From NCBI RefSeq assembly GCF_015689195.1, contig NZ_CP065044.1, forward strand, positions 3,658,001 through 3,722,000: 64,000 bases of DNA. The letters are read 5' to 3'. This document shows, one piece after another, positions 26,367 through 40,108 of this stretch. Position 1 is the first letter of the stretch; every line of letters starts with the position of its first letter. The DNA comes from Pectobacterium aroidearum. GTDB lineage: Bacteria; Pseudomonadota; Gammaproteobacteria; Enterobacterales; Enterobacteriaceae. The position numbers and the translations under genes were made by a program. Below the pieces are notes generated by a model, which was not told the DNA's origin, made no database searches, and saw only the letters and a program-made list of their open reading frames with translations.

Positions 26367-27749
26367 TTACTGATCGACTTTCGCCCCTTTATCCAACTGC
26401 ATCACCGGACCTTCTTTCACATTCAGCGTCAGGCCTTTGGTTTGCAGTTCCGCATTCCTGACGCGAATCCCTTTATCCGCATCAATGCGCACGTTATCAA
26501 AGTGGAAACCGCTGAGCGGGGCTTCCGGCACGCCGATAATGTAAGCCGCGGCCTTGGTCTTACCGGTCGACTCCAGATTCTCAATGGTCACATTGCTGAA
26601 ATGCGGCGTTTTGTATTGATCAAACGGCTGCGCTGGATCGGTATCCGGTGGGTAAATCTGCTCACCCATCGTGAAGCCGCCTTCGGCCAGCATCTTATCG
26701 ACTTCAACCTGCACTATCGGCGCGGCTTTGTAGTAAGCAGCAAAGACGAGTGGGATTTCGACATCCACCATTTTGGTATTACGGTAGGTGATATTTTTCA
26801 CTTCGCCGCCTTTACCACGCAGGGTTTTAATGCGGATACCGTACATGGAACCTTCAAACTGGTTGTTTTCAACCAGCACGTTATTCACACCACCAGAGGT
26901 TTCGCTGCCGATCGAAATACCGCGCCCCTGTTTCAGGATATTGTTAGCAATATAAATGTTATCCACGACGCCATTCGGGAAGCGGCTATCCGGCTTCTCG
27001 GCTTTTATCGCAATATGGTCGTCATTACAGTCGATATAGTTGTTGGTGATACGGATATTCTGACTGTCGATCGGGTCGATAGCATCGGTATTTGGCGCAT
27101 GCCACGGCGACAGAATGCGCGTGCCGTTCACATCCACATCGTGCGAATAACGCATCACAATGTGAAAGCTTGGAGAATGCGTGAGCGTGACGCCATCTAC
27201 CAGCACGTTGCTGGAACTTTTGATATAAATCAGACGAGGACGATCGGTTCCGCCCTTTTTGCCCGTTGCACGAATATTCTCACGCCAGCGTTCCCACCAG
27301 ACGGCGCCCTGTCCATCAATGGTGCCCTGACCGGTGATAGCCACGTTCTGCGCGTCGGCAATACTGATAAAGGGAAGCCAGCCATTTTCCGCTTCAGCGT
27401 ATTTGGTTTTTTCCGTTGCGCGATACGCCGCGATTTCGGTCGACGCAACGATAGTTGCATCTTTTGCCAAATCCAGTCGGATGTTACTTTTCAGGAACAA
27501 CGGATCGACCAGATAGTTACCGCGAGGTACGTGTACCGTTCCGCCACCAGCCGCAGCGCAATCATCAATCGCTTTCTGGAAAGCTTCGGTATTTAGTGCG
27601 ATCTGTAGGCGGTGACCTTCGGCCCCGTATTGTGTGACGTCACAGATTTTATCGGGGAATTTCACTGAACTGGCCGCTTGTGCCGTGCCAGCTTGAATAC
27701 CCAGAGTGATGCAGGAAGCCATTAATGACAGAGCAAGACCACTACGCAT
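26367..27749 (-). CDS. pehN: Secreted GH28 polygalacturonase, PehN-like
   Basis: Pectin-degrading glycoside hydrolase of family 28 that cleaves polygalacturonate. From ATG 27749 the protein is 460 aa with a Sec signal peptide (hydrophobic core about 5-20, cleavage near GTAQA). GH28 catalytic landmarks are NTDAIDP, CNDDHIAIK (the Asp-Asp pair), GRGISIGSE (Arg replaces the usual His of GHG) and RIKT. The longer in-frame start at 27827 would precede the signal peptide and is rejected; GGTGAGG lies just before 27749. A KdgR-type operator lies 18-36 bp upstream. Whether it acts as an endo- or exo-enzyme cannot be told here, and the pehN symbol is by resemblance. Confidence 0.85.
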   Translation of the reverse strand: MRSGLALSLMASCITLGIQAGTAQAASSVKFPDKICDVTQYGAEGHRLQIALNTEAFQKAIDDCAAAGGGTVHVPRGNYLVDPLFLKSNIRLDLAKDATIVASTEIAAYRATEKTKYAEAENGWLPFISIADAQNVAITGQGTIDGQGAVWWERWRENIRATGKKGGTDRPRLIYIKSSSNVLVDGVTLTHSPSFHIVMRYSHDVDVNGTRILSPWHAPNTDAIDPIDSQNIRITNNYIDCNDDHIAIKAEKPDSRFPNGVVDNIYIANNILKQGRGISIGSETSGGVNNVLVENNQFEGSMYGIRIKTLRGKGGEVKNITYRNTKMVDVEIPLVFAAYYKAAPIVQVEVDKMLAEGGFTMGEQIYPPDTDPAQPFDQYKTPHFSNVTIENLESTGKTKAAAYIIGVPEAPLSGFHFDNVRIDADKGIRVRNAELQTKGLTLNVKEGPVMQLDKGAKVDQ

Positions 27750-27766
27750 ACTTAACCTCACCAAAT

Positions 27767-27785
27767 AATGAAATATCGTTTTAAT
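27767..27785 (-). promoter_or_regulatory. KdgR operator upstream of pehN
   Basis: The 19-bp sequence AATGAAATATCGTTTTAAT fits the KdgR consensus AATRAAAYRNYRTTTYATT at all but one position by my hand alignment. KdgR represses pectinolysis genes in soft-rot enterobacteria until pectin breakdown products appear. The site sits between promoter and start codon, where a bound repressor would block transcription. Confidence 0.8.
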
Positions 27786-27985
27786 AAAATACCACCAACA
27801 TTCCAGTAAAAAGCGAGGGACGATCACGTTTTAGATGTATTCGTAATAATTACAATAAGATATGAATTTTTCTGTGCAATTGCCCTATTCACATTTTGCC
27901 AATCGCCATAGGATGAAGATCGCTCTGTCTGGTCGTGGGCAACGCAGTGTGAAAGGAAGCGAAAAGAAAGCAGGATTAAGAAATG

Positions 27986-29375: not shown

Positions 29376-31529
29376 TTAGTGGCCGGAAGAGACTTTCACG
29401 CCACCTTCAGGAACCGGAACATACGGCGTTTCCTGATCGGTACGTTCAGCCACTTTACGTGCAGCCAGTGCCGCTTTGATACCGTACGCGATAATGCTGT
29501 ACACCACGATCAGGAACAGAATGCTCAGACCGGCGTTGGTATAGTTGTTTGTCACGATATGGTTCATATTCGAAATCTGCTGTGCGCTCAGATCGGCACC
29601 GCCTTCTGCAATTTTGCCCTTGAACATGTTCGCCATGTAGAAGAAGCCTTCCAACTGTGGGTTGTCGCTGAACAATTTCAGCCCCAGCGCCCAAGTCGTA
29701 CAGATCAGCAGCCAAATCGCCGGAAGCAGCGTGACCCAGATGTACTGTGTACGTTTCATCTTAATCAGAATTACTGTACCCAGAATCAGCGCGACGGCAG
29801 CCAGCATCTGGTTAGAGATACCGAACAGCGGCCATAGGCTCTTCACGCCGCCCAGCGGATCGACCACGCCTTGATACAGCAGGTAGCCCCACAGACCGAC
29901 GCAGCCCGCCGTACCGATGATACCAGCAATCAGCGAGTCAGTTTTCTTCAGGAACGGAACAAAGTTACCCAACAGATCCTGCAACATGAAGCGGCCCGCA
30001 CGCGTACCCGCATCCAGTGCGGTCAGAATGAACAGCGCCTCAAACAGAATACCGAAGTGATACCAGAAGCCCATGTCGGCACCAGGAATGATCTGGTGGA
30101 ACACGTGTGCGATACCAACAGCCAGCGTTGGTGCACCGCCTGCACGGTTCAGAACGGAAGGTTCACCGATGTCTTTCGCCGTTTGCAGAATCTGCTCAGG
30201 AGAAATCACGAAGCCCCAGGAGCTAACGGTCGCCGCCGCGTGGGCGGACACATCCTGCAGTTGCGCCAGAATCATCGGCGCATCCGCCGTGCCCAGTCGG
30301 TGCAGGTCTGGCATCGTAATCCCCAGCGCCGCTGGTGGCGTGTTCATCGCGAAGTACAGACCGGGTTCGATAATTGATGCCGCAACCAGCGCCATCACCG
30401 CAACGAAAGATTCCATCAGCATGGCACCGTAACCGATGAAACGCGCATCGTTTTCGTTAGCCAGCAGTTTCGGTGTGGTACCGGATGCAATCAGCGCGTG
30501 GAAGCCGGATACGGCACCACAGGCGATAGTAATAAACAGGAACGGGAACAGCGTACCTTTCCAGACCGGGCCGGTGCCATCCACAAACTGCGTGACCGCT
30601 GGCATTTTCAGATCCGGGTTCAGGATCACGATACCAATCGCCAGACCGACGATGACACCGATTTTCAGGAAGGTTGCCAGATAGTCACGCGGAGCCAGAA
30701 TCAACCATACTGGCAGCAGTGCCGACACGAAAGCATAGCCAATCAGCGTATAGGTAATCGTCGTATCTTTGAAGGTCAGCGCCGGGCCCCAGTACGGATC
30801 GTGGGCAACCACGCCACCGAACCAGATCGCCAATACCAACAGCACGATCCCCATCACCGAGACTTCACCGACTTTACCCGGACGGATAAAGCGCATGTAG
30901 ATGCCCATAAACAGCGCGATCGGCACCGTCGAACAAACGGTAAAGACGCCCCATGGGCTTTCTGCCAGTGCTTTCACCACGATCAGCGCCAGTACGGCAA
31001 GAATAATGATCATGATCAGGAAGCAACCGAACAGCGCAATCGTACCCGGTACAGGCCCCAGCTCTTTCTTGACGATTTCGCCTAGCGACGTGCCATTACG
31101 ACGGGTTGAAATAAACAGAACCATGAAGTCCTGTACTGCCCCCGCCAGCACCACCCCCGCCAGAAGCCATAAGGTGCCCGGCAAGTAGCCGACCTGCGCG
31201 GCCAGTACCGGCCCAACCAGCGGACCCGCACCTGCGATAGCGGCAAAGTGGTGTCCGAACAGGACGTTACGGTTCGTCGGCACATAGTTGAGGCCGTCGT
31301 TATTAACAACGGCAGGGGTTGCTCTGGTCGGATCCAACTGCATGACTTTTTGTGCGATATACAGGCTGTAGTATCGATAGGCCACGAGGTAAACGGCGAC
31401 AGAAGCAACAATAATCCATAATGCACTGACATGCTCACCGCGACGTAGTGCGACTACGCCGAGGCAGGCAGCCCCAATGATTCCAAGAATCATCCAGGGG
31501 ATGTGTTTAAGAATGGAACTGCTCTTCAT
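29376..31529 (-). CDS. btsT: BtsT/YjiY, CstA-family pyruvate:proton symporter
   Basis: Inner-membrane transporter of 717 aa with about 16-18 hydrophobic segments. The family signature GHHFAAIAGAGPLVGPVLAAQ is visible here as HHFAAIAGAGPLVGP near residue 90, with the later VSGFHALIASGTTPKLL and GFWYHFGILFEALFILTALDAGTRAGRFM blocks (given in pieces). BtsT imports pyruvate in E. coli; CstA is the close paralog. The btsT-yjiX-yjiA order is that of the E. coli yjiY locus, which decides the name. Start at ATG 31529 (MKSSSILKH) has AGGATG upstream; the long in-frame upstream extension is not conserved-looking. Confidence 0.92.
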   Translation of the reverse strand: MKSSSILKHIPWMILGIIGAACLGVVALRRGEHVSALWIIVASVAVYLVAYRYYSLYIAQKVMQLDPTRATPAVVNNDGLNYVPTNRNVLFGHHFAAIAGAGPLVGPVLAAQVGYLPGTLWLLAGVVLAGAVQDFMVLFISTRRNGTSLGEIVKKELGPVPGTIALFGCFLIMIIILAVLALIVVKALAESPWGVFTVCSTVPIALFMGIYMRFIRPGKVGEVSVMGIVLLVLAIWFGGVVAHDPYWGPALTFKDTTITYTLIGYAFVSALLPVWLILAPRDYLATFLKIGVIVGLAIGIVILNPDLKMPAVTQFVDGTGPVWKGTLFPFLFITIACGAVSGFHALIASGTTPKLLANENDARFIGYGAMLMESFVAVMALVAASIIEPGLYFAMNTPPAALGITMPDLHRLGTADAPMILAQLQDVSAHAAATVSSWGFVISPEQILQTAKDIGEPSVLNRAGGAPTLAVGIAHVFHQIIPGADMGFWYHFGILFEALFILTALDAGTRAGRFMLQDLLGNFVPFLKKTDSLIAGIIGTAGCVGLWGYLLYQGVVDPLGGVKSLWPLFGISNQMLAAVALILGTVILIKMKRTQYIWVTLLPAIWLLICTTWALGLKLFSDNPQLEGFFYMANMFKGKIAEGGADLSAQQISNMNHIVTNNYTNAGLSILFLIVVYSIIAYGIKAALAARKVAERTDQETPYVPVPEGGVKVSSGH

Positions 31530-31768
31530 AAGACATCCTTCAATTAAAAATGATAATCGTTTGATTTTGTTAGCTGTGGAAAAAGAAACCCTGGTAAAGC
31601 GTCGTGCGATCACGTGAGTCATCGCGTATTTCAGATAAGGAAGATAGTGGCGGCACAGTACGTCATCGCGTACGCGCGTGGGGCGGGTATTTGGGTAGGC
31701 GGCAGAATAGCGTGCTAAGCGGTTAGAATGACGCAGTGAGTGGCTGGGGAAAAATTGGGCTACATCAA

Positions 31769-31795
31769 AAAGAAAAGGCCGCGACATTCGCGGCC
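31769..31795 (-). terminator. Terminator of tail-fibre-like gene 1
   Basis: Stem GGCCGCGA/TCGCGGCC with loop CAT (31777-31795), followed on the minus strand by a T-rich tract (TTTTCTTTTTG), 27 nt after the stop of the gene. Confidence 0.85.
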
Positions 31796-31821: not shown

Positions 31822-33831
31822 TTACGGAACCTGATACGCCAGCTTGTAATTACCTGCCGTTACGGTGCGGAATGTCACACTGTCCGTGCGCCAGCGGATT
31901 TCTACTTCCGCGGGGGACTGCAGTTTCCAACTGGACGCATCGTTGACGTTCAACACCAGTCGGTCAATGGTCGCGACATCGGCCGCTGGATCGGTGATAT
32001 CAAGCGCGAAGGCAAAGGCAAGCGAATCCGGCACGCCGTTATTGGATGAGAACAGTTGCGTCCACTGTGCCGCCGTAATAGCACCGAGTTCAGTTGGCGT
32101 CATGCCGTCTGCAATCAACGCCGTAGCCCCTGCCGTATTGGCTGACAGCGCGCCAATATCCACCCACGCCCCGTTGCGCAAGACATGCCAGTTCACCAAA
32201 TCCCGCGTCACGGCAACACGCACTTTACCGTTGCCCGTCTGCGTTGCCGTTAACGTTGCGGCATTGATTTTTACCCATGCAGCGGACGTCAGTGATTTTT
32301 GAATGGCAATTTGTGTATAAGGAATATACGACGACAGTAAATCAAGTTGAGCATTACCAACAATCTTGATTGGTAACAAACCAGAGATTGATTCATTTGA
32401 TATCCAACCTGAATTAATGAATCCGCTGTCAAAATCAGCCGAGGAAATCTCAGTCAATTCTCCATTATTTGCAGAATACCATTTATCATTGCTGCTAATT
32501 AAAACCTTTCCAGCCTGGAATAAGTTAAGTTTCTTTAATGTCAGGTAGTTATTGTTGTTGCCACCAGCGGTAACAAACAGTCGAAAGCTCTTATATTCTC
32601 CAGCGGGAGAGAAACTATAATTACGGACAGCACCGAGCGTATTATTGACATCATTATTTACAACATGTAAATCATCCCAACTTGCCCCCCCATCATTAGA
32701 CCCCTGAAAAATCCAGTTTTTCGGGCCATTATTATAAATGACCGTCCTGTTAGCAAAGCTATAACCGGAAATTTTCGTCGGGACTGGTAGGTCAACTCTA
32801 ATCCAATGGGGATTATCTACGGTCGCGGCATTTAACGCCCCCCAACAATCATATTCATTACTAGATAGATTATTGTCATTATCAAATGCAAAGTAGGGTA
32901 AAAATTGAGGTCTGGACATATCACTGGCACTAATAACATAGCCGACTGGATTTGTATTTGATGTCATTTTCGGAACAACAGATTTTTCAACAACGGAAAG
33001 ATTAATCAACTTTCCATCAGCTCGAACTGGTGCAGAATAAATGCCGTCATGATTATCAAGTGTAAATATACCGCCGGTATATTCATGCATTGCGCCGTCC
33101 AAAACAACCGCACTCGTCGCGTTATAATTAGGCTCACTCGACGCATTAAAGTCATCAACGACATAAGTTTGGTTTGCTGCACCTGCTTCTTCTTTCAGCG
33201 CGTACGCCGCGAGATTAAACGTGCTTTGTGGGCTAATGCTGAACGCGTGATTTTGCCCTGCCGTTGCCCCCTGACGATCGGCAACGACATAGCCAGAGCC
33301 ACCGCTACCGGAACCACCACCCGTAGCACTGATTACCGTTTTCTCACTCGCAGGGTTATAGCTCAGCGTGACGCCCGCCCCCGCTTCCAGCGAGGAATGA
33401 ATAAGCTGTTTTGTTTTTTGTGTGTAATCGGTGATTTCCGCTGTGGTATGGGTGTGCCCGACAGCCGCAACACCCATTTGTGCTGGCGTTGGTGAAACAT
33501 CACCGCTGCCCAGTAGCGACTGACCAAAGAGCGTGCGGATAGTGGTGCCAGAAATTAACTCACCCTGCTTTGCATTCCAGACCGCTTTTTCATCCGGCGT
33601 GGCAAATTTTCTGGTGGCCGTTTCAGTAATCTGATCGGCCGTATAGTCGCCAGGCTGTGCAGTGACGACCCCCGTCCGCCCAAATACGGAAGCAACGCCA
33701 GAAATTCCTGGCTCTTGCCCATTACCAGAATGACAGCAAGAGTGAGGATTAACCTGAATAGGAGGATGAGCGATACATGTTGATTTGCCTGTGCTGTCAC
33801 AAACATTGATTTCAATATTGATGTCTTTCAT
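31822..33831 (-). CDS. Tail-fibre-like modular protein, paralog 1 (discoidin-like middle)
   Basis: Unassigned protein of 669 aa, last of three tandem paralogs. Residues 1-40 form a small Cys-containing head (Cys11, Cys19, Cys32-33). Residues 43-175 resemble phage tail-fibre shaft repeats: SVFGRTGVVTAQPGDYTADQ, TPDEKAVWNAK, LLGSGDVSPTPAQMG, GHTHTTAEITDYT. A Gly/Ser linker (171-180) leads to a middle module. About 290-440 read like an F5/8 type C (discoidin) sugar-binding fold (NPHWIRVDLPVP, WIFQGSNDGGASWDDL). A constant C-terminus (522-669) ends in YKLAYQVP. No signal peptide is seen. I chose MKDINIEINV because paralog 3 can start only there. Function unknown; target binding is inferred. Confidence 0.85.
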   Translation of the reverse strand: MKDINIEINVCDSTGKSTCIAHPPIQVNPHSCCHSGNGQEPGISGVASVFGRTGVVTAQPGDYTADQITETATRKFATPDEKAVWNAKQGELISGTTIRTLFGQSLLGSGDVSPTPAQMGVAAVGHTHTTAEITDYTQKTKQLIHSSLEAGAGVTLSYNPASEKTVISATGGGSGSGGSGYVVADRQGATAGQNHAFSISPQSTFNLAAYALKEEAGAANQTYVVDDFNASSEPNYNATSAVVLDGAMHEYTGGIFTLDNHDGIYSAPVRADGKLINLSVVEKSVVPKMTSNTNPVGYVISASDMSRPQFLPYFAFDNDNNLSSNEYDCWGALNAATVDNPHWIRVDLPVPTKISGYSFANRTVIYNNGPKNWIFQGSNDGGASWDDLHVVNNDVNNTLGAVRNYSFSPAGEYKSFRLFVTAGGNNNNYLTLKKLNLFQAGKVLISSNDKWYSANNGELTEISSADFDSGFINSGWISNESISGLLPIKIVGNAQLDLLSSYIPYTQIAIQKSLTSAAWVKINAATLTATQTGNGKVRVAVTRDLVNWHVLRNGAWVDIGALSANTAGATALIADGMTPTELGAITAAQWTQLFSSNNGVPDSLAFAFALDITDPAADVATIDRLVLNVNDASSWKLQSPAEVEIRWRTDSVTFRTVTAGNYKLAYQVP

Positions 33832-33895
33832 GGTGTTGATGACTCCGTTAATAAAAGGCATAAGGAGTATCACTTATTTGACCGGGGTATTATTT

Positions 33896-33907
33896 TAAAG
33901 CGCTTTA
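33896..33907 (-). promoter_or_regulatory. Palindromic operator candidate upstream of paralog 1
   Basis: Perfect 12-bp palindrome TAAAGCGCTTTA 65 bp upstream of the start codon. The same sequence stands at the same distance before paralogs 2 and 3. It overlaps a possible -10 (TAAAAT on the minus strand). Confidence 0.6.
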
Positions 33908-33944
33908 CTAATCTGCTATGTCCTTTTCTATAAAAGTCAGCATA

Positions 33945-33968
33945 AAAAAGGCCGCGATATACGCGGCC
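33945..33968 (-). terminator. Terminator of tail-fibre-like gene 2
   Basis: Stem GGCCGCG/CGCGGCC with loop ATATA (33950-33968), followed on the minus strand by six T, 26 nt after the stop of paralog 2. Confidence 0.85.
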
Positions 33969-33994
33969 AGTGAAATAGGTAATCGGAAGACAAA

Positions 33995-36031
33995 TTACGG
34001 AACCTGATACGCCAGTTTGTAATTGCCTGCCGTTACGGTACGGAATGTCACGCTGTCCGTGCGCCAGCGGATTTCCACTTCCGCGGGGGACTGCACTTTC
34101 CAGTTGGACGCATCGTTGACGTTCAGCACCAGTCGGTCAATGGTCGCGACATCGGCCGCTGGATCGGTGATATCAAGCGCGAAGGCAAAGGCAAGCGAAT
34201 CCGGCACGCCGTTACTGGATGCAAACAGTTGCGTCCACTGTGCCGCCGTAATAGCGCCGAGTTCAGTTGGCGTCATACCATCTGCAATCAACGCCGTAGC
34301 CCCTGCCGTATTGGCTGACAGCGCTCCAATATCAACCCACGCCCCGTTGCGCAAGACATGCCAGTTCACCAAATCCCGCGTCACCGCAACACGGACTTTA
34401 CCGTTGCCCGTCTGCGTTGCCGTTAACGTTGCGGCATTGATCTGGCTATAACTGGCTAATGACGTCAACGCTGACTGGGTCAGAATCTGTGAGTATGGCG
34501 TGTATTTCGTCTCAATATTCATTTCCGAATTGGAGATGACTTTCACAGGGCTAGTGAATAATGATGGCAGGTTATTAACGCCGCCAATTCCCTGTGAACT
34601 AATTTTTTCCGCGGTTAATTCACCGACAATCTCTTCCAATAATCCATTATTGACACCGTAATTTTTACCGCCGTAATTAATTACAAACTTATCCAAGGAT
34701 TCATAAATTTCCAATTCATCAACACCGACGAATGATGATAATACTCCATAGTTCGCTAGCGTGATATGAATACGATAATATTGATAACTGATATCGTTAT
34801 TAATAACATACGTACGTTTCTGCCCAGGAACATTCTGGGTATCATTTGTAATAGAGTGTAATACCGTCCATGTCACCCCATCATGACTCCCCTGAAACGT
34901 CCAGGTACGCGGCGAATTGGAATACCCGGACTGATTACGGGTCACAACGGAATAGCCTTTAGCAAGCACGGACGCAGGGAGCTTTACGCCGACCCATTGT
35001 GGCGATGACACGGAAGGTGCGCCATCGCTAGTCCATGAATCAGTCCCCCCAACCTGAGATCGGTTAAACGCTTTATATATTGCAGATCCGGCCTGCGGGT
35101 CTCTACTGTTTGAGCTTGCGATTGCTTCATAGCCCGATGGCGCGTTATTCGCTGTCATTACAGGAATGATGCTTTCCGCTGTAACTGGTGTTGTCGATGT
35201 TTTCTGAAGAATGCTTATCAACTCTCCATCCGCTTTTATTTCGGCAGAGTAAAATTCTCCATCTGGTGTTAACTGGTAATTTGAACCAGTATAAAGGCTG
35301 GCTATACCGTCAAAAATAACATCATTTGTTGCGTTGTAATTGGGCTCACTTGAGGCATTAAAGTCATCAACAACATAAGTTTGGTTTGCTGCACCAGCGA
35401 CTTCTTTCAGCGCGTACGCCGCGAGATTAAACGTGCTTTGTGGGCTAATGCTGAACGCGTGATTTTGCCCTGCCGTTGCGCCCTGACGATCGGCAACGAT
35501 ATAGCCAGAACCACCGTTACCGGAACCACCGCCTGCAGCGCTGATAATGGTTTTCTCATTCACCGGGTTATAGCTCAGCGTGACACCCGCCCCAGCCTCC
35601 AGCGAGGAATGGATAAGCTGTTTTGTTTTTTGTGTGTAGTCGGAGATGTCCGCTGTGGTATGTGTGTGTCCAATCGCAGCAGCACCCATTTGCGCTGGCG
35701 TGGGTGAAACATCACCGCTGCCCAGCAGCGACTGACCAAAGAGCGTGCGGATAGTGGTGCCAGAAATTAACTCATCCTGCTTCGCATTCCAGACCGCTTT
35801 TTCATCCGGCGTGGCAAATTCTCTGGTGGCGGTTTCGGTGATCTGATCGGCCGTGTAGTCACCGGATTGTGCGGTTACGACACCGGTTCGCCCGAATACG
35901 GAGGCAACACCCGAAACACCGGGCTCTTGACCGCTTCCGTTATCTGAATGACAACAAACAGGGGGATGAACGGTACATGTTGCTTTACCTGTACTGTCAC
36001 AAACATTGATTTCAATATTAATGTCTTTCAT
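33995..36031 (-). CDS. Tail-fibre-like modular protein, paralog 2 (discoidin-like middle)
   Basis: Unassigned 678-aa paralog with the same layout as its neighbours. The Cys-containing head (VCDSTGKATC, then VCCHS) has the shortest spacer of the three. Fibre-type repeats (VFGRTGVVTAQSGDYTADQ, TPDEKAVWNAK, GHTHTTADISDYT) follow. The middle differs strongly from paralog 1: the discoidin-like part reads SPQWVGVKLPASV, WTFQGSHDGVTWTVLHS and YQYYRIHITL, then a linker with KYTPYSQIL. The C-terminal block from INAATLTATQTGNGKV to YKLAYQVP is almost identical to paralog 1. The start MKDINIEINV was picked over an upstream ATG (36061) by comparison with paralog 3. Own terminator and own palindrome suggest separate transcription. 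Confidence 0.85.
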   Translation of the reverse strand: MKDINIEINVCDSTGKATCTVHPPVCCHSDNGSGQEPGVSGVASVFGRTGVVTAQSGDYTADQITETATREFATPDEKAVWNAKQDELISGTTIRTLFGQSLLGSGDVSPTPAQMGAAAIGHTHTTADISDYTQKTKQLIHSSLEAGAGVTLSYNPVNEKTIISAAGGGSGNGGSGYIVADRQGATAGQNHAFSISPQSTFNLAAYALKEVAGAANQTYVVDDFNASSEPNYNATNDVIFDGIASLYTGSNYQLTPDGEFYSAEIKADGELISILQKTSTTPVTAESIIPVMTANNAPSGYEAIASSNSRDPQAGSAIYKAFNRSQVGGTDSWTSDGAPSVSSPQWVGVKLPASVLAKGYSVVTRNQSGYSNSPRTWTFQGSHDGVTWTVLHSITNDTQNVPGQKRTYVINNDISYQYYRIHITLANYGVLSSFVGVDELEIYESLDKFVINYGGKNYGVNNGLLEEIVGELTAEKISSQGIGGVNNLPSLFTSPVKVISNSEMNIETKYTPYSQILTQSALTSLASYSQINAATLTATQTGNGKVRVAVTRDLVNWHVLRNGAWVDIGALSANTAGATALIADGMTPTELGAITAAQWTQLFASSNGVPDSLAFAFALDITDPAADVATIDRLVLNVNDASNWKVQSPAEVEIRWRTDSVTFRTVTAGNYKLAYQVP

Positions 36032-36095
36032 GGTATTGATGACTCCGTTAATAAAGGGCATAGGGAGTATCGCTTATTTGACAGGAGCATTATTT

Positions 36096-36107
36096 TAAAG
36101 CGCTTTA
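36096..36107 (-). promoter_or_regulatory. Palindromic operator candidate upstream of paralog 2
   Basis: TAAAGCGCTTTA, identical to the sites upstream of paralogs 1 and 3, 65 bp before the start codon. The flanks (TATTTTAAAGCGCTTTACTAATCTG) are also kept between paralogs 1 and 2, as seen in the two halves TATTTTAAAGCG and CTTTACTAATCTG. Confidence 0.6.
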
Positions 36108-36144
36108 CTAATCTGCTATATCTTTTTCTATAAACATCAGAATA

Positions 36145-36168
36145 AAAAAGGCCGCGATATATACGGCC
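36145..36168 (-). terminator. Terminator of tail-fibre-like gene 3
   Basis: Shorter stem GGCCG/CGGCC (36150-36168) with a 9-nt loop, followed on the minus strand by six T. It is the same element as after paralogs 1 and 2 but with a weakened stem, so read-through into paralog 2 is possible. Confidence 0.65.
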
Positions 36169-36194
36169 TGTGGAATAGGTAATCGGAAGACAAA

Positions 36195-38222
36195 TTACGG
36201 AACCTGATACGCCAGTTTGTAATTGCCTGCCGTTACGGTGCGGAATGTCACACTGTCCGTACGCCAGCGGATTTCCACTTCCGCAGGGGACTGCAGTTTC
36301 CAACTGGACGCATCGTTGACGTTCAGCACCAGCCGGTCAATGGCCGCGACATCAGTCGCCGGATCGGTGATATCAAGCGCGAACGCAAAGGCAAGTGAGT
36401 CCGGCACACCGTTATTGGATGCAAACAGCTGTGTCCACTGTGCCGCCGTAATAGCGCCGAGTTCAGCTGGCGTCATGCCGTCTGCAATCAGTTTCGTTGC
36501 GCTCGTCGTATCTACTGACAACGCCCCCACATCAACCCACGCCCCGCTCCGCCACACATGCCAGTTCACTAAGTCCCGCGTGACAGCGACACGCACTTTA
36601 CCGTTGCCAGTTTGCGTAGCTGTCAGCACTGCGGAGTTGATTTGTGGCCATAACGCCGCACTCGACAGGGCTTTCTGTATTGCAATTTGAGGAGGCGGTG
36701 TATATAGCACTTTTGCATCAATATTTTTTGATGAAAAAATCGTTACTGGCTGTATTCCTGACAATGATGATTCAGGTATGACGCCAGATGACAAAAAACC
36801 ATTATTATAAAAATCTTCCGCCACAGATGGTGCTGGGACCGATGTTAATACCCCATTATTCGCTGAATACCACTTACCATCACTGCCGTTAATCAACAGT
36901 CGCTCTCTGCGGAATATTTCAAGCTCCCCAATTTGAACGTGTGGACCAGCATTTTGCTCGGTTATTAAAATACGGAATGATGAATACGGCGTGTCATTGG
37001 TGAACGTATATTCTCGAACCGCCCCCTTCCCATCGCGAGTATCATTAGATACCGTATGTAACGTATGCCACGTTGTACCATCATTACTCCCCTGAAACAT
37101 CCACGATTTCGGGCTGAGTGGCCCAGGATTCAGGTTTTCGTTTGTTATTCTGTATGTATCAATCAATGCAGGAGCCGCCATAGTAATACGCAGCCAATGT
37201 GGGTTAGCCACTGTTGGTACGGTTTTGGATGCCCAGTATCGATTTAACGTTCCGTTGAATGCTGTCCACGCCGCGTATTGCACTGAATACTCAGACGATG
37301 CGTCAACCGTGTAGCCAACTGCACTATTATTTGCTGTCATCACAGGAATCAGCGTTTTATTAACAGCATCAATTTCAATGCTTTCACCGTCTGATTTGAT
37401 TGGTGACGAATAAAAATTACCGGATTGCACCAGATTATATAGCTTTCCGACATAGGGGCGTAATGTATTATCAAAAACAGCAGCATGAGTTACGTTGTAG
37501 TTCTCTTCGCTAGACACGCCGAAATCGTCAACAACATAAGTCTGATTCGCTGCGCCAGCGACTTCTTTCAGCGCGTACGCCGCGAGATTAAACGTGCTTT
37601 GTGGGCTAATGCTGAACGCGTGATTTTGCCCCGCCGTTGCGCCCTGACGATCGGCAACGATATAACCAGAACCGCCCGTACCCGAACCCGTACCACCGCC
37701 TGCAGCGCTGATAATGGTTTTCTCATTCACCGGGTTATAGCTCAGCGTGACGCCCGCCCCGGCCTCCAGCGAGGAATGAATGAGCTGCTTCGTTTTTGAT
37801 GTGTAGTCGGTGATGTCCGCTGTGGTGTGAGTATGCCCAACCGCCGCGACACCCATTTGCGCTGGCGTAGGTGAAACATCACCGCTGCCCAGCAGCGACT
37901 GACCAAAGACCGTGCGGATAGTAGTACCGGAAATTAATGCATCCTGCTTTGCATTCCAGACCGCTTTTTCATCCGGCGAGGCAAATTTTCTGGTGTCCGT
38001 TTCCGTAATCTGATCGGCCGTATAGTCGCCTGATTGTGCAGTGACAACGCCAGTCCGTCCGAATACGGAAGCAACACCGGAAACACCAGATTGCGGTTCG
38101 CACTGATTATCCGTATCCACCAGGCAACAGGTGTGAGGATTGATCTGAATTGGGGGATTAACAACACACGTTGATTTTTCTGCGCTGCCACAGACATTGA
38201 TTTCAATATTTACGCTTTTCAT
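36195..38222 (-). CDS. Tail-fibre-like modular protein, paralog 3 (discoidin-like middle)
   Basis: Unassigned 675-aa protein, first of the array in transcription order. The head has Cys11 and Cys19 plus a later Cys-Cys and an extra Cys (DNQCEP). Fibre-type repeats are conserved (SVFGRTGVVTAQSGDY, GHTHTTADITDYT), with a longer Gly/Ser linker (GGTGSGTGGSG). The discoidin-like middle is its own version: NPHWLRITMAAPALIDTY, WMFQGSNDGTTWHTLH, SSFRILITEQNAG. The C-terminal block is slightly more diverged (VWRSGAWVDVGALSVDT). Only the ATG at 38222 is usable, because the equivalent upstream ATG runs into a stop after four codons. That fixes the start for all three. Nearest neighbours are btsT and ushA; no phage structural gene is near. 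Confidence 0.85.
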   Translation of the reverse strand: MKSVNIEINVCGSAEKSTCVVNPPIQINPHTCCLVDTDNQCEPQSGVSGVASVFGRTGVVTAQSGDYTADQITETDTRKFASPDEKAVWNAKQDALISGTTIRTVFGQSLLGSGDVSPTPAQMGVAAVGHTHTTADITDYTSKTKQLIHSSLEAGAGVTLSYNPVNEKTIISAAGGGTGSGTGGSGYIVADRQGATAGQNHAFSISPQSTFNLAAYALKEVAGAANQTYVVDDFGVSSEENYNVTHAAVFDNTLRPYVGKLYNLVQSGNFYSSPIKSDGESIEIDAVNKTLIPVMTANNSAVGYTVDASSEYSVQYAAWTAFNGTLNRYWASKTVPTVANPHWLRITMAAPALIDTYRITNENLNPGPLSPKSWMFQGSNDGTTWHTLHTVSNDTRDGKGAVREYTFTNDTPYSSFRILITEQNAGPHVQIGELEIFRRERLLINGSDGKWYSANNGVLTSVPAPSVAEDFYNNGFLSSGVIPESSLSGIQPVTIFSSKNIDAKVLYTPPPQIAIQKALSSAALWPQINSAVLTATQTGNGKVRVAVTRDLVNWHVWRSGAWVDVGALSVDTTSATKLIADGMTPAELGAITAAQWTQLFASNNGVPDSLAFAFALDITDPATDVAAIDRLVLNVNDASSWKLQSPAEVEIRWRTDSVTFRTVTAGNYKLAYQVP

Positions 38223-38458
38223 AGTACCGACTACTCCGTTAGTGAGGGTGCATCAGGAGTATCGTTTATTTGGCGGGTCTGTTATTTTAAAGCGCTTTAC
38301 TAAACATAAGATTATTTAATCAATTAAATCAGCAAATTAGATTCGCTTCATTTTTGCAATGAAAGGGCTAAATGCCGCACAGCCACTAAGAACTCGTCCC
38401 AGAAAAAATGGCGGCTTAAGTCATCAGCAATAGAGACAAAAACCGCCATCATTATCCG
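38223..38458 (-). promoter_or_regulatory. Upstream region of the tail-fibre-like array
   Basis: A 236-bp AT-rich gap. The palindrome TAAAGCGCTTTA stands at 38288-38299, 66 bp before paralog 3. A long-loop inverted repeat ATGGCGG/CCGCCAT (about 38408-38452) lies just after the ushA stop and may end ushA transcription. Nothing else is recognisable. Confidence 0.5.
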
Positions 38459-40108
38459 TTATTTATAAACGATCTCACCTTTCGGCGCGTAGGCTTCTGC
38501 ATCCAGCGGAGAATGCTTCTCGATGTACTGCTTCAGCACTTCAGCATCGACAAAACCGGTGTTCACATAGCCCGGCAGGTTATCAAGACGCGGGTAGCCA
38601 TCACCGCCCATCGCATTAAAGTTCAGCGTTGCCATGCGGTAGACTTTATCTGCCTGCAACGGCTCACCTTTAATTTTCACGTTCTGTACGCCCTGTCCGT
38701 CCGCCGTCAGGCTGACGTTGAGGAATTGCGCATAGGCACCGGAATCCACCTTTTTATTCGCTGCTACGGCCAGGTATTTCTCGACATCGCTGCCTTTCAT
38801 ATCCACATAAACCAGCGTATTGGCAAACGGCTGAACCTTAAGGACATCTTTATAGGTGATATCGCCTGATTCAATCGAGTCACGTACGCCACCGCCGCTC
38901 ATAATGGCAAAATCCGCCTCTGCACGCTCAAGCTGTGCCGACAACAGCACGTGTGCCAGATTGGTCTGACGGAAACGCACCTGATTACGATCGCCTTCCA
39001 GTTTGCCTTTCACACTACCGATCTTGATGCCCAGCTGCGCCTGTCCTTTCTCCTGGAACGGCGTTAGCATTTTCATGACGTCAGCATCCTGCGTGATTTC
39101 CTGCGTATAGAAAACACGTTCGGTCTTGCCGTCCTTTTCTACCTTTTTCTTCAGGTTGATTGGAATCAGCTGGTAATGCTCAAGCTTCAATTCACCATTG
39201 CGGAATGTGAAATCAGCACGGCCAACATATTTCCCCCACTCATGCGCCTGAACAATCCAGGTGCCGTTCTGACGATCGGGAGCACAAGGCGTGCCCGGCA
39301 CATAATCCACCTGTTTTTTATTCTCCTGCGCCATACAGACCGGATCTTGCGAGTGCCCCCCGACAATCATGTCCAAATAGCCGGCTGGCAGGCTACGCGC
39401 CATTTCTACATCACCCGGTGCATTGGAACCGTGATTACCGTCGTCATAATGCCCCATGTGCGTCGCAGCAATAATCACGTCAGGCTTTTCACTCTTCCGT
39501 AATTGCTCAACAACCTGCTTCGCTTCCGTAGAAGGATTACGGAATTCGATATCGGAAAAATACTCAGGATTGCCTAATTTGGCCGTATCGTCCGTTGTCA
39601 GGCCGATAACCGCGATTTTCACACCTTGCTTGTCGAACAGGGCATAAGGCTTAAATAAGCGCTCATTGGTGCTTTTTTGGTAGATATTGGCCGATAACAG
39701 CGGGAATTTTGCCCATTTCTCCTGCTGGCGCAGGACAGACAGCGGATTATCAAATTCGTGGTTGCCAAGCGCCATCGCATCATAGCCAACCATGTTCATA
39801 CCACGAAAATCGGGCTCCGCATCCTGCAGGTCGGACTCAGGCACGCCAGTATTAATATCACCGCCGGAGAGCAGCAACACGCTGCCGCCTTTACTCGCCA
39901 CTTCCTGACGAATCTGATCGACCAGCGTTTTTTGCGCCGCCAGCCCATATTCACCGTAGTCGTTATGCCAGAAGTGGCCGTGGTGGTCATTCGTATGCAA
40001 AATGGTGATGGCGTATGTTTTATCTTTCTCCCAAGCCATTGACATAACAGGCGTTAGCGCCAGCGATACCGCCATCGCACATCCCAGAGCTTTTATTGAA
40101 AAGCGCAT
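38459..40108 (-). CDS. ushA: UshA, periplasmic UDP-sugar hydrolase / 5'-nucleotidase
   Basis: Secreted metallophosphoesterase that degrades external UDP-sugars and nucleotides to nucleosides for uptake. The 549 aa begin with a signal peptide (hydrophobic core 8-22, cleavage after VMSMA). Metal-binding motifs are ILHTNDHHGHF (about 35-45), GGDINTG, and ALGNHEFDNP (about 110-120), and later IAATHMGHY and GGHSQD. The C-terminal 5'-nucleotidase domain shows MSGGGVRDSIESGDITYKDV in pieces and ends KGEIVYK. In K-12 ushA neighbours ybaK; here a 12-kb insertion separates them. Confidence 0.97.
   Translation of the reverse strand: MRFSIKALGCAMAVSLALTPVMSMAWEKDKTYAITILHTNDHHGHFWHNDYGEYGLAAQKTLVDQIRQEVASKGGSVLLLSGGDINTGVPESDLQDAEPDFRGMNMVGYDAMALGNHEFDNPLSVLRQQEKWAKFPLLSANIYQKSTNERLFKPYALFDKQGVKIAVIGLTTDDTAKLGNPEYFSDIEFRNPSTEAKQVVEQLRKSEKPDVIIAATHMGHYDDGNHGSNAPGDVEMARSLPAGYLDMIVGGHSQDPVCMAQENKKQVDYVPGTPCAPDRQNGTWIVQAHEWGKYVGRADFTFRNGELKLEHYQLIPINLKKKVEKDGKTERVFYTQEITQDADVMKMLTPFQEKGQAQLGIKIGSVKGKLEGDRNQVRFRQTNLAHVLLSAQLERAEADFAIMSGGGVRDSIESGDITYKDVLKVQPFANTLVYVDMKGSDVEKYLAVAANKKVDSGAYAQFLNVSLTADGQGVQNVKIKGEPLQADKVYRMATLNFNAMGGDGYPRLDNLPGYVNTGFVDAEVLKQYIEKHSPLDAEAYAPKGEIVYK

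Follow-up and report, generated by a model that had tools for sequence, protein, structure and literature searches.

The question raised by the ushA-cstA locus of Pectobacterium aroidearum is why three intact genes resembling those of phage tail fibres stand there in tandem, and what their products could be doing outside a phage. The locus lies in a 64,000-nucleotide stretch of DNA (the window; positions 3658001–3722000 of a single-contig genome of 4,995,896 bases), to which the feature coordinates below refer. The answer that we favour, tentatively and at a little under an even chance, is that the genes encode domesticated lectins which work without a particle and are controlled by PhoP, with glycans on bacterial surfaces as their probable targets. 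On the minus strand of 31822–38222, three intact open reading frames (ORFs) encode paralogs, here called orphan fibre-lectins, between ushA (38459–40108) and cstA (29376–31787). Fibre-lectin 1 (36195–38222, identified by ORF, Pfam, PHROGs and genome survey) is ushA-proximal and 675 residues long. Fibre-lectin 2 (33995–36031) has 678 residues from the conserved MKD, or 688 from an in-frame upstream ATG, and the cstA-proximal fibre-lectin 3 (31822–33831) has 669 from the conserved MKD, or 683 from an upstream GTG; lengths are counted below from this MK(D/S) start unless stated. Pairwise identity is 66–68% over the full length; the ends barely vary and the middle diverges. All of this bears out a preliminary description made from the DNA letters alone, which had given three intact tandem paralogs of 669–678 residues. 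It had also seen no other phage, integrase or lysis gene in the window, and no such family was matched at E ≤ 1e-5 by any of the 37 other main window ORFs, a scan that covered ORFs of at least 122 residues and included cstA and ushA; one of the 37 is without any family match.

The proposed phage link proved strong. All three array proteins match phrog_16348 with E values of about 1e-230, from approximately residue 40 to the end, and their middle also matches phrog_17517, labelled 'tail protein'. The fibre-type repeats reported from the letters are fainter by Pfam, where a PTR match (E 0.02–0.03) stays below the cut-off and appears in two of the three proteins. Among phage proteins, gp65 of ZF40, a temperate phage of Pectobacterium, comes closest (PHROG 16348), with 61% identity between array residues 47–675 and gp65 residues 209–829; gp193 of Erwinia phage RisingSun, annotated as 'putative carbohydrate binding protein', shares 40% identity with this array part. 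Shaft, lectin and C-terminal part are thus common to the phage and array forms. Residues 1–208 of gp65, on the other hand, align with the array at chance-level scores only, and the phrog_16348 match begins at profile position 185–187 of 818. The phage forms include this long N-terminal part, have tail or virion genes nearby and precede gp66 or gp194, unlike the array copies with their Cys-rich leader and their own upstream boxes. In ZF40 the gp65 gene is located 3' of putative baseplate genes and 5' of two genes annotated as putative tail fibre; because of this genomic place and the lectin module, gp65 is probably a tail fibre, and its N-terminal part, absent from the array, may be the particle anchor.

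The leader that replaces the 208 N-terminal residues of gp65 comprises about 46 residues (residues 1–46 of copy 1, 38085–38222, minus strand). It holds Cys11 and a CC pair in all 40 intact copies examined and Cys19 in 38 of them. A profile of the leader and the first shaft residues, run at E ≤ 0.001 against 247 genomes of the order, matched three genomes of Pectobacterium and gave a single weak site in G265; the leader has been seen only in Pectobacterium, to which it may be restricted. A crude test gave no Sec-type signal (best hydrophobic window of the first 60 residues 1.33 vs 2.20 for the UshA signal). In the middle of all three proteins, a hidden Markov model search placed F5/8 type C above the Pfam cut-off, in agreement with the module first suspected there. 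On the minus strand, the module occupies residues 286–440 of copy 1 (36903–37367), and the Pfam matches cover residues 315–435 of the 688-residue reading of copy 2 (34757–35119) and 301–430 of a 670-residue reading of copy 3 (32545–32934). The middle has a CBM32/discoidin lectin fold. Of the earlier suggestion of secreted or surface sugar-binding proteins, sugar binding is what this module predicts, whereas export is conjectural. The C-terminal part of copy 1 (residues 441–675, 36195–36902, minus strand), near-constant in its last 150 residues, gave no match in a fold comparison.

The array stands outside any phage tail module: no phage family was matched by the 37 window ORFs described above, no gp66 gene lies downstream in this genome, and of 25 Pectobacterium genomes, the present one included, 24 lack gp66. 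The occurrence of the same genes inside a phage tail module had been named beforehand as the case that would speak for a plain remnant. A related gene is indeed found there, in ZF40 and in a contig of genome G014 that resembles a phage tail module, but in the long form only (841 residues in G014), and G014 holds a short array copy at ushA-cstA as well. In a survey of 78 genomes at E ≤ 1e-10, the array protein was detected in the present genome and in 20 of 23 other Pectobacterium genomes, including one with a scrap and one with all copies broken, and in none of 54 outside the genus. Copy number, which the preliminary description had proposed to compare, is one to four in tandem at the ushA-cstA site. 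Genome G013 retains a C-terminal scrap only, ushA adjoins cstA without an array in G019 and G009, and a different gene follows ushA in G006. Three genomes have an extra copy outside ushA-cstA (L058–L060). These second-locus copies are 681–683 residues long, 89–97% alike by part among three species and about 55% identical to copy 1, with the same upstream box; the copy in L058 is preceded by a gene whose beginning is signal-like.

Selection has acted differently on the parts of these proteins. Among the 40 intact copies, which include three from second loci and exclude the broken copies (one in G020, four in G021) and the G013 scrap, the ratio of mean nonsynonymous to mean synonymous divergence (dN/dS) was 0.12 for the leader, 0.085 for residues 47–180 and 0.105 for the C-terminus vs 0.32–0.40 for residues 241–520 (saturated pairs excluded, leaving 265 to 739 of 780 pairs per region). 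Purifying selection acts on leader, shaft and C-terminus, where dN/dS is about 0.1, which agrees with the initial view that the array is not a plain prophage remnant. Clustered at 75% identity, the middles of these 40 copies form 16 types, of which eight are singletons. In 15 of 54 same-type pairs from different genomes, which are not independent of each other, dS of the middle was less than half that of ushA, indicating recent module exchange between species. Averaged over all 54 pairs, dS was 0.426 in ushA, 0.445 in the middle, 0.635 in the C-terminus and 0.646 in the shaft; on these means, the majority of pairs appear to date back as far as the species themselves.

Upstream of each gene stands an identical, exact 21-base box, TTAGTAAAGCGCTTTAAAATA, which is a predicted PhoP operator (minus strand; 38283–38303 for copy 1, 36091–36111 for copy 2 and 33891–33911 for copy 3). 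In all 45 array-type genes examined, broken and second-locus genes included, the box is found 80 or 81 nucleotides before the start codon and matches 16–21 positions of TTAGTAAAGCGCTTTAAAATA; a strict pattern located 41 of them and the other four were placed by best match. A study of PhoP in P. versatile predicted the operators TTATTTTAAAGCGCTTTAC and GTATTTTAAAGCGGTTTAC for OA04_12400 and OA04_32560, two PhoP-activated CBM32 genes with ratios of 2.02 and 2.04 (PMC7843439). Read as reverse complements, these operators are the boxes found upstream of array copies and of the second-locus gene in G017, and the boxes in the window contain the operator predicted in that study letter for letter. From the operator letters and the closeness of locus tags to OA04_12450, which is pehN (PMC7843439), OA04_12400 and OA04_32560 are very probably orthologs of the array-type genes. 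Like the array proteins, their products contain CBM32, are large and have no signal peptide, and the authors gave them a probably different function from that of a CBM32 polygalacturonate binder discussed beside them under polygalacturonic acid utilisation (PMC7843439). Nothing is said of a phage origin, an array, a leader, an exchange of modules or pectocins in the parts of that account considered here. With a predicted PhoP operator at every copy, synthesis of the product would be expected at low levels of divalent cations.

The box also connects the array with bacteriocin genes. At up to three mismatches it has four sites in the present genome, three in the array and one, with a single mismatch, before a ferredoxin gene; a ferredoxin–colicin M gene of the pectocin M type lies about 3 kb from this site. 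In the 25 Pectobacterium genomes the same threshold yielded 60 matches vs 4 for a reversed control. Array or second-locus sites account for 43 of these (four in G078 assigned by spacing alone) and ferredoxin or ferredoxin-toxin genes for seven, while the remaining ten have three mismatches each, and the six examined were chance-like. The seven comprise ferredoxin genes in G000, G078, G005 and G010, the broken ferredoxin gene of G021, a ferredoxin-pesticin fusion in G007 and a ferredoxin–colicin M fusion in G018, with domains checked by Pfam at the G000, G007 and G018 loci. Six of them have one or two mismatches and that of G018 has three; outside the array, boxes with at most two mismatches occurred only before ferredoxin or pectocin genes in these genomes. 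A profile of array upstream regions alone recovered the pectocin site of the present genome at E 0.0022 over 22 of 50 positions, with the next best match at 0.3. Pectocins M1 and M2, with a stand-alone ferredoxin (PMC3302902), and pectocin P thus have the upstream box in common with the array; they differ in carrying ferredoxin and colicin M or pesticin domains, none of which Pfam detected in the array proteins. A separate observation at the pectocin locus (L067:7862-8400, G000:C1) is a small ORF of about 50 residues, charged and with a Cys-rich end, RRPGCNRAKCFCAR, between the shared box and the ferredoxin gene; it also occurs in G007, G010, G005 and G078.

These results could be explained as follows. 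From a ZF40-gp65-type tail protein, very likely a receptor-binding one, an ancestor would have gained the shaft, the lectin module and the C-terminal part, leaving the N-terminal part behind and fusing the rest to a short Cys-rich leader. The fused gene, located in the ushA-cstA interval, would have been amplified there in a tandem row, with every copy transcribed singly from a promoter bearing a PhoP operator. The product would be a free fibre, presumably trimeric, that leaves the cell by a non-Sec route and whose CBM32 module may bind surface glycans of related bacteria alongside the production of ferredoxin-type bacteriocins. Bacterial surface glycans are favoured as the ligand because a lectin module of phage tail origin is diverse and sometimes exchanged, and because the box is shared with bacteriocin genes. 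A more far-reaching version, which we consider conceivable but doubtful, sees phage receptor-binding lectins, freed from any particle, as a repertoire that the whole genus keeps under PhoP control and makes alongside ferredoxin bacteriocins, and in which cassette exchange would set the neighbours or phage receptors that are bound. The lectins could then serve as soluble weapon, coat or anti-phage decoy, and the Cys-rich leader could function in export or in locking the trimer.

Several observations weigh against PhoP-controlled lectins for bacterial glycans. The annotation of gp65 is 'hypothetical', and phrog_16348 carries no functional label. Since three of the 23 relatives lack the array protein and one more has a scrap, it is dispensable. 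Activation by PhoP was only about twofold, in a P. versatile strain that operator letters tie to the present genes (PMC7843439). A pectocin-site match of 22 of 50 positions indicates that mainly the 21-base box is shared, and neither 'pectocin' nor 'bacteriocin' occurs in the main text of the PhoP study (PMC7843439). Pectocins are secreted upon induction by DNA-damaging agents (PMC6813493), which disfavours PhoP as their switch. Finally, a GH28 polygalacturonase gene at 26367–27827, about 4 kb from the array, and control by PhoP fit a plant-glycan role equally well.

Plant glycans are a fair rival as the ligand. As a full account, lectins for plant polysaccharides, i.e., PhoP-activated CBM32 proteins on pectin or wall glycans that hold the cell or its enzymes at the plant wall, seem to us unlikely. 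Besides the polygalacturonase gene, the placing of the operator-bearing genes under polygalacturonic acid utilisation, next to a polygalacturonate binder, speaks for them, but identity to that binder is very weak, a signal peptide is missing and the function is probably different (PMC7843439). The phage tail ancestry also argues against plant lectins, and 16 types of middle, some of them exchanged, would suit diverse bacterial glycans better than pectin.

An anti-phage role is improbable. Free fibres might mask the phage receptor of their own cell, or join incoming ZF40-like gp65 trimers and render them anchorless; the close similarity to gp65 from residue 47 to the end, the loss of its N-terminal part and the strong purifying selection on shaft and C-terminus would all fit such proteins. 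However, trimer poisoning would not need a diversified lectin, no PADLOC model matched at E ≤ 0.01 in a library of described systems, and G014 carries an array copy and a gp65-type gene together.

Very improbable, in our estimate, is the proposal of the preliminary description that the proteins are fibres for a tail-like particle encoded elsewhere, such as alternative fibres of carotovoricin. The contractile locus it pointed to exists: the single locus of the sheath family searched, PF04984, is by eye a carotovoricin-type cluster, approximately 1.7 Mb from the array, and genus-wide exchange of the variable binding part of carotovoricin tail fibres is known (PMC13195805) and resembles that in the array. 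Nothing ties this cluster to the array, however, as none of its ORFs of at least 90 residues was matched by copy 1 in phmmer at E ≤ 10, no box with up to five mismatches was found in its 40 kb, and the N-terminal part of gp65 is missing from the array. Within the cluster, a ferredoxin-like ORF (L170, G000:C1:1960144-1960476) was observed, and a transposase-like ORF, of IS200 type by eye (L171, G000:C1:1970768-1971256), directly follows the carotovoricin fibre gene.

Prophages land at the ushA 3' end, as judged from two cases. In G007 a piece with a duplicate ushA 3' end, containing fibre-like and DinI-like ORFs by eye, lies between ushA and the array (G007:C1:392661-397651), and an IMG/VR contig (L127) runs from a DinI-like phage gene through other genes to the ushA 3' end and three array copies. 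No attachment (att) sequence matching this site was found in the parts of ZF40 compared. In G021 (L055), frameshifts or stops disrupt each of the four array copies; its ferredoxin gene is likewise broken, so that sequencing or assembly error is possible besides decay. The landing site, the broken G021 copies and the G013 scrap might point to neutral debris of prophages or to a reservoir of sequence for phage fibres, but this is the least credible reading given 40 intact copies with dN/dS of about 0.1 in three parts, a genus-specific leader, a conserved box per gene and terminator-like sites in the window.

In the literature, supplements excepted, we found no description of the array genes as orphan fibres, and the word 'orphan' does not occur in PMC13195805 or PMC6385640. 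Phage tail parts are known as domesticated whole machines, namely tailocins and injection systems. It would be another matter for a single tail protein to persist as a selected and diversified tandem array controlled by a virulence regulator. Lectin-like bacteriocins (LlpA) have a different lectin fold from the array proteins, but a lectin without toxin domain that acts on competitors would be a functional parallel. If the PhoP-controlled lectins proposed here act on neighbours or phage receptors, phage host-range modules would have been turned into bacterial tools, and the shared box offers a direct way of asking if, in this pathogen of crops, bacteriocins and lectins are tied to plant infection through PhoP.

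The preliminary description had assigned each gene its own promoter region and terminator. A sigma-70 consensus scan listed no promoter upstream of the three genes, but conserved upstream blocks precede them and terminator-like sites, each a GC-rich stem with a T run on the minus strand, follow copy 1 (36149–36169), copy 2 (33950–33968) and copy 3 (31777–31795); the region holds 15 such sites vs a mean of 7.8 in shuffles. Elsewhere in the genome, a protein of 520 residues (L062:6196-7758) combines PKD and polysaccharide lyase domains with a below-cut-off F5/8 type C match.

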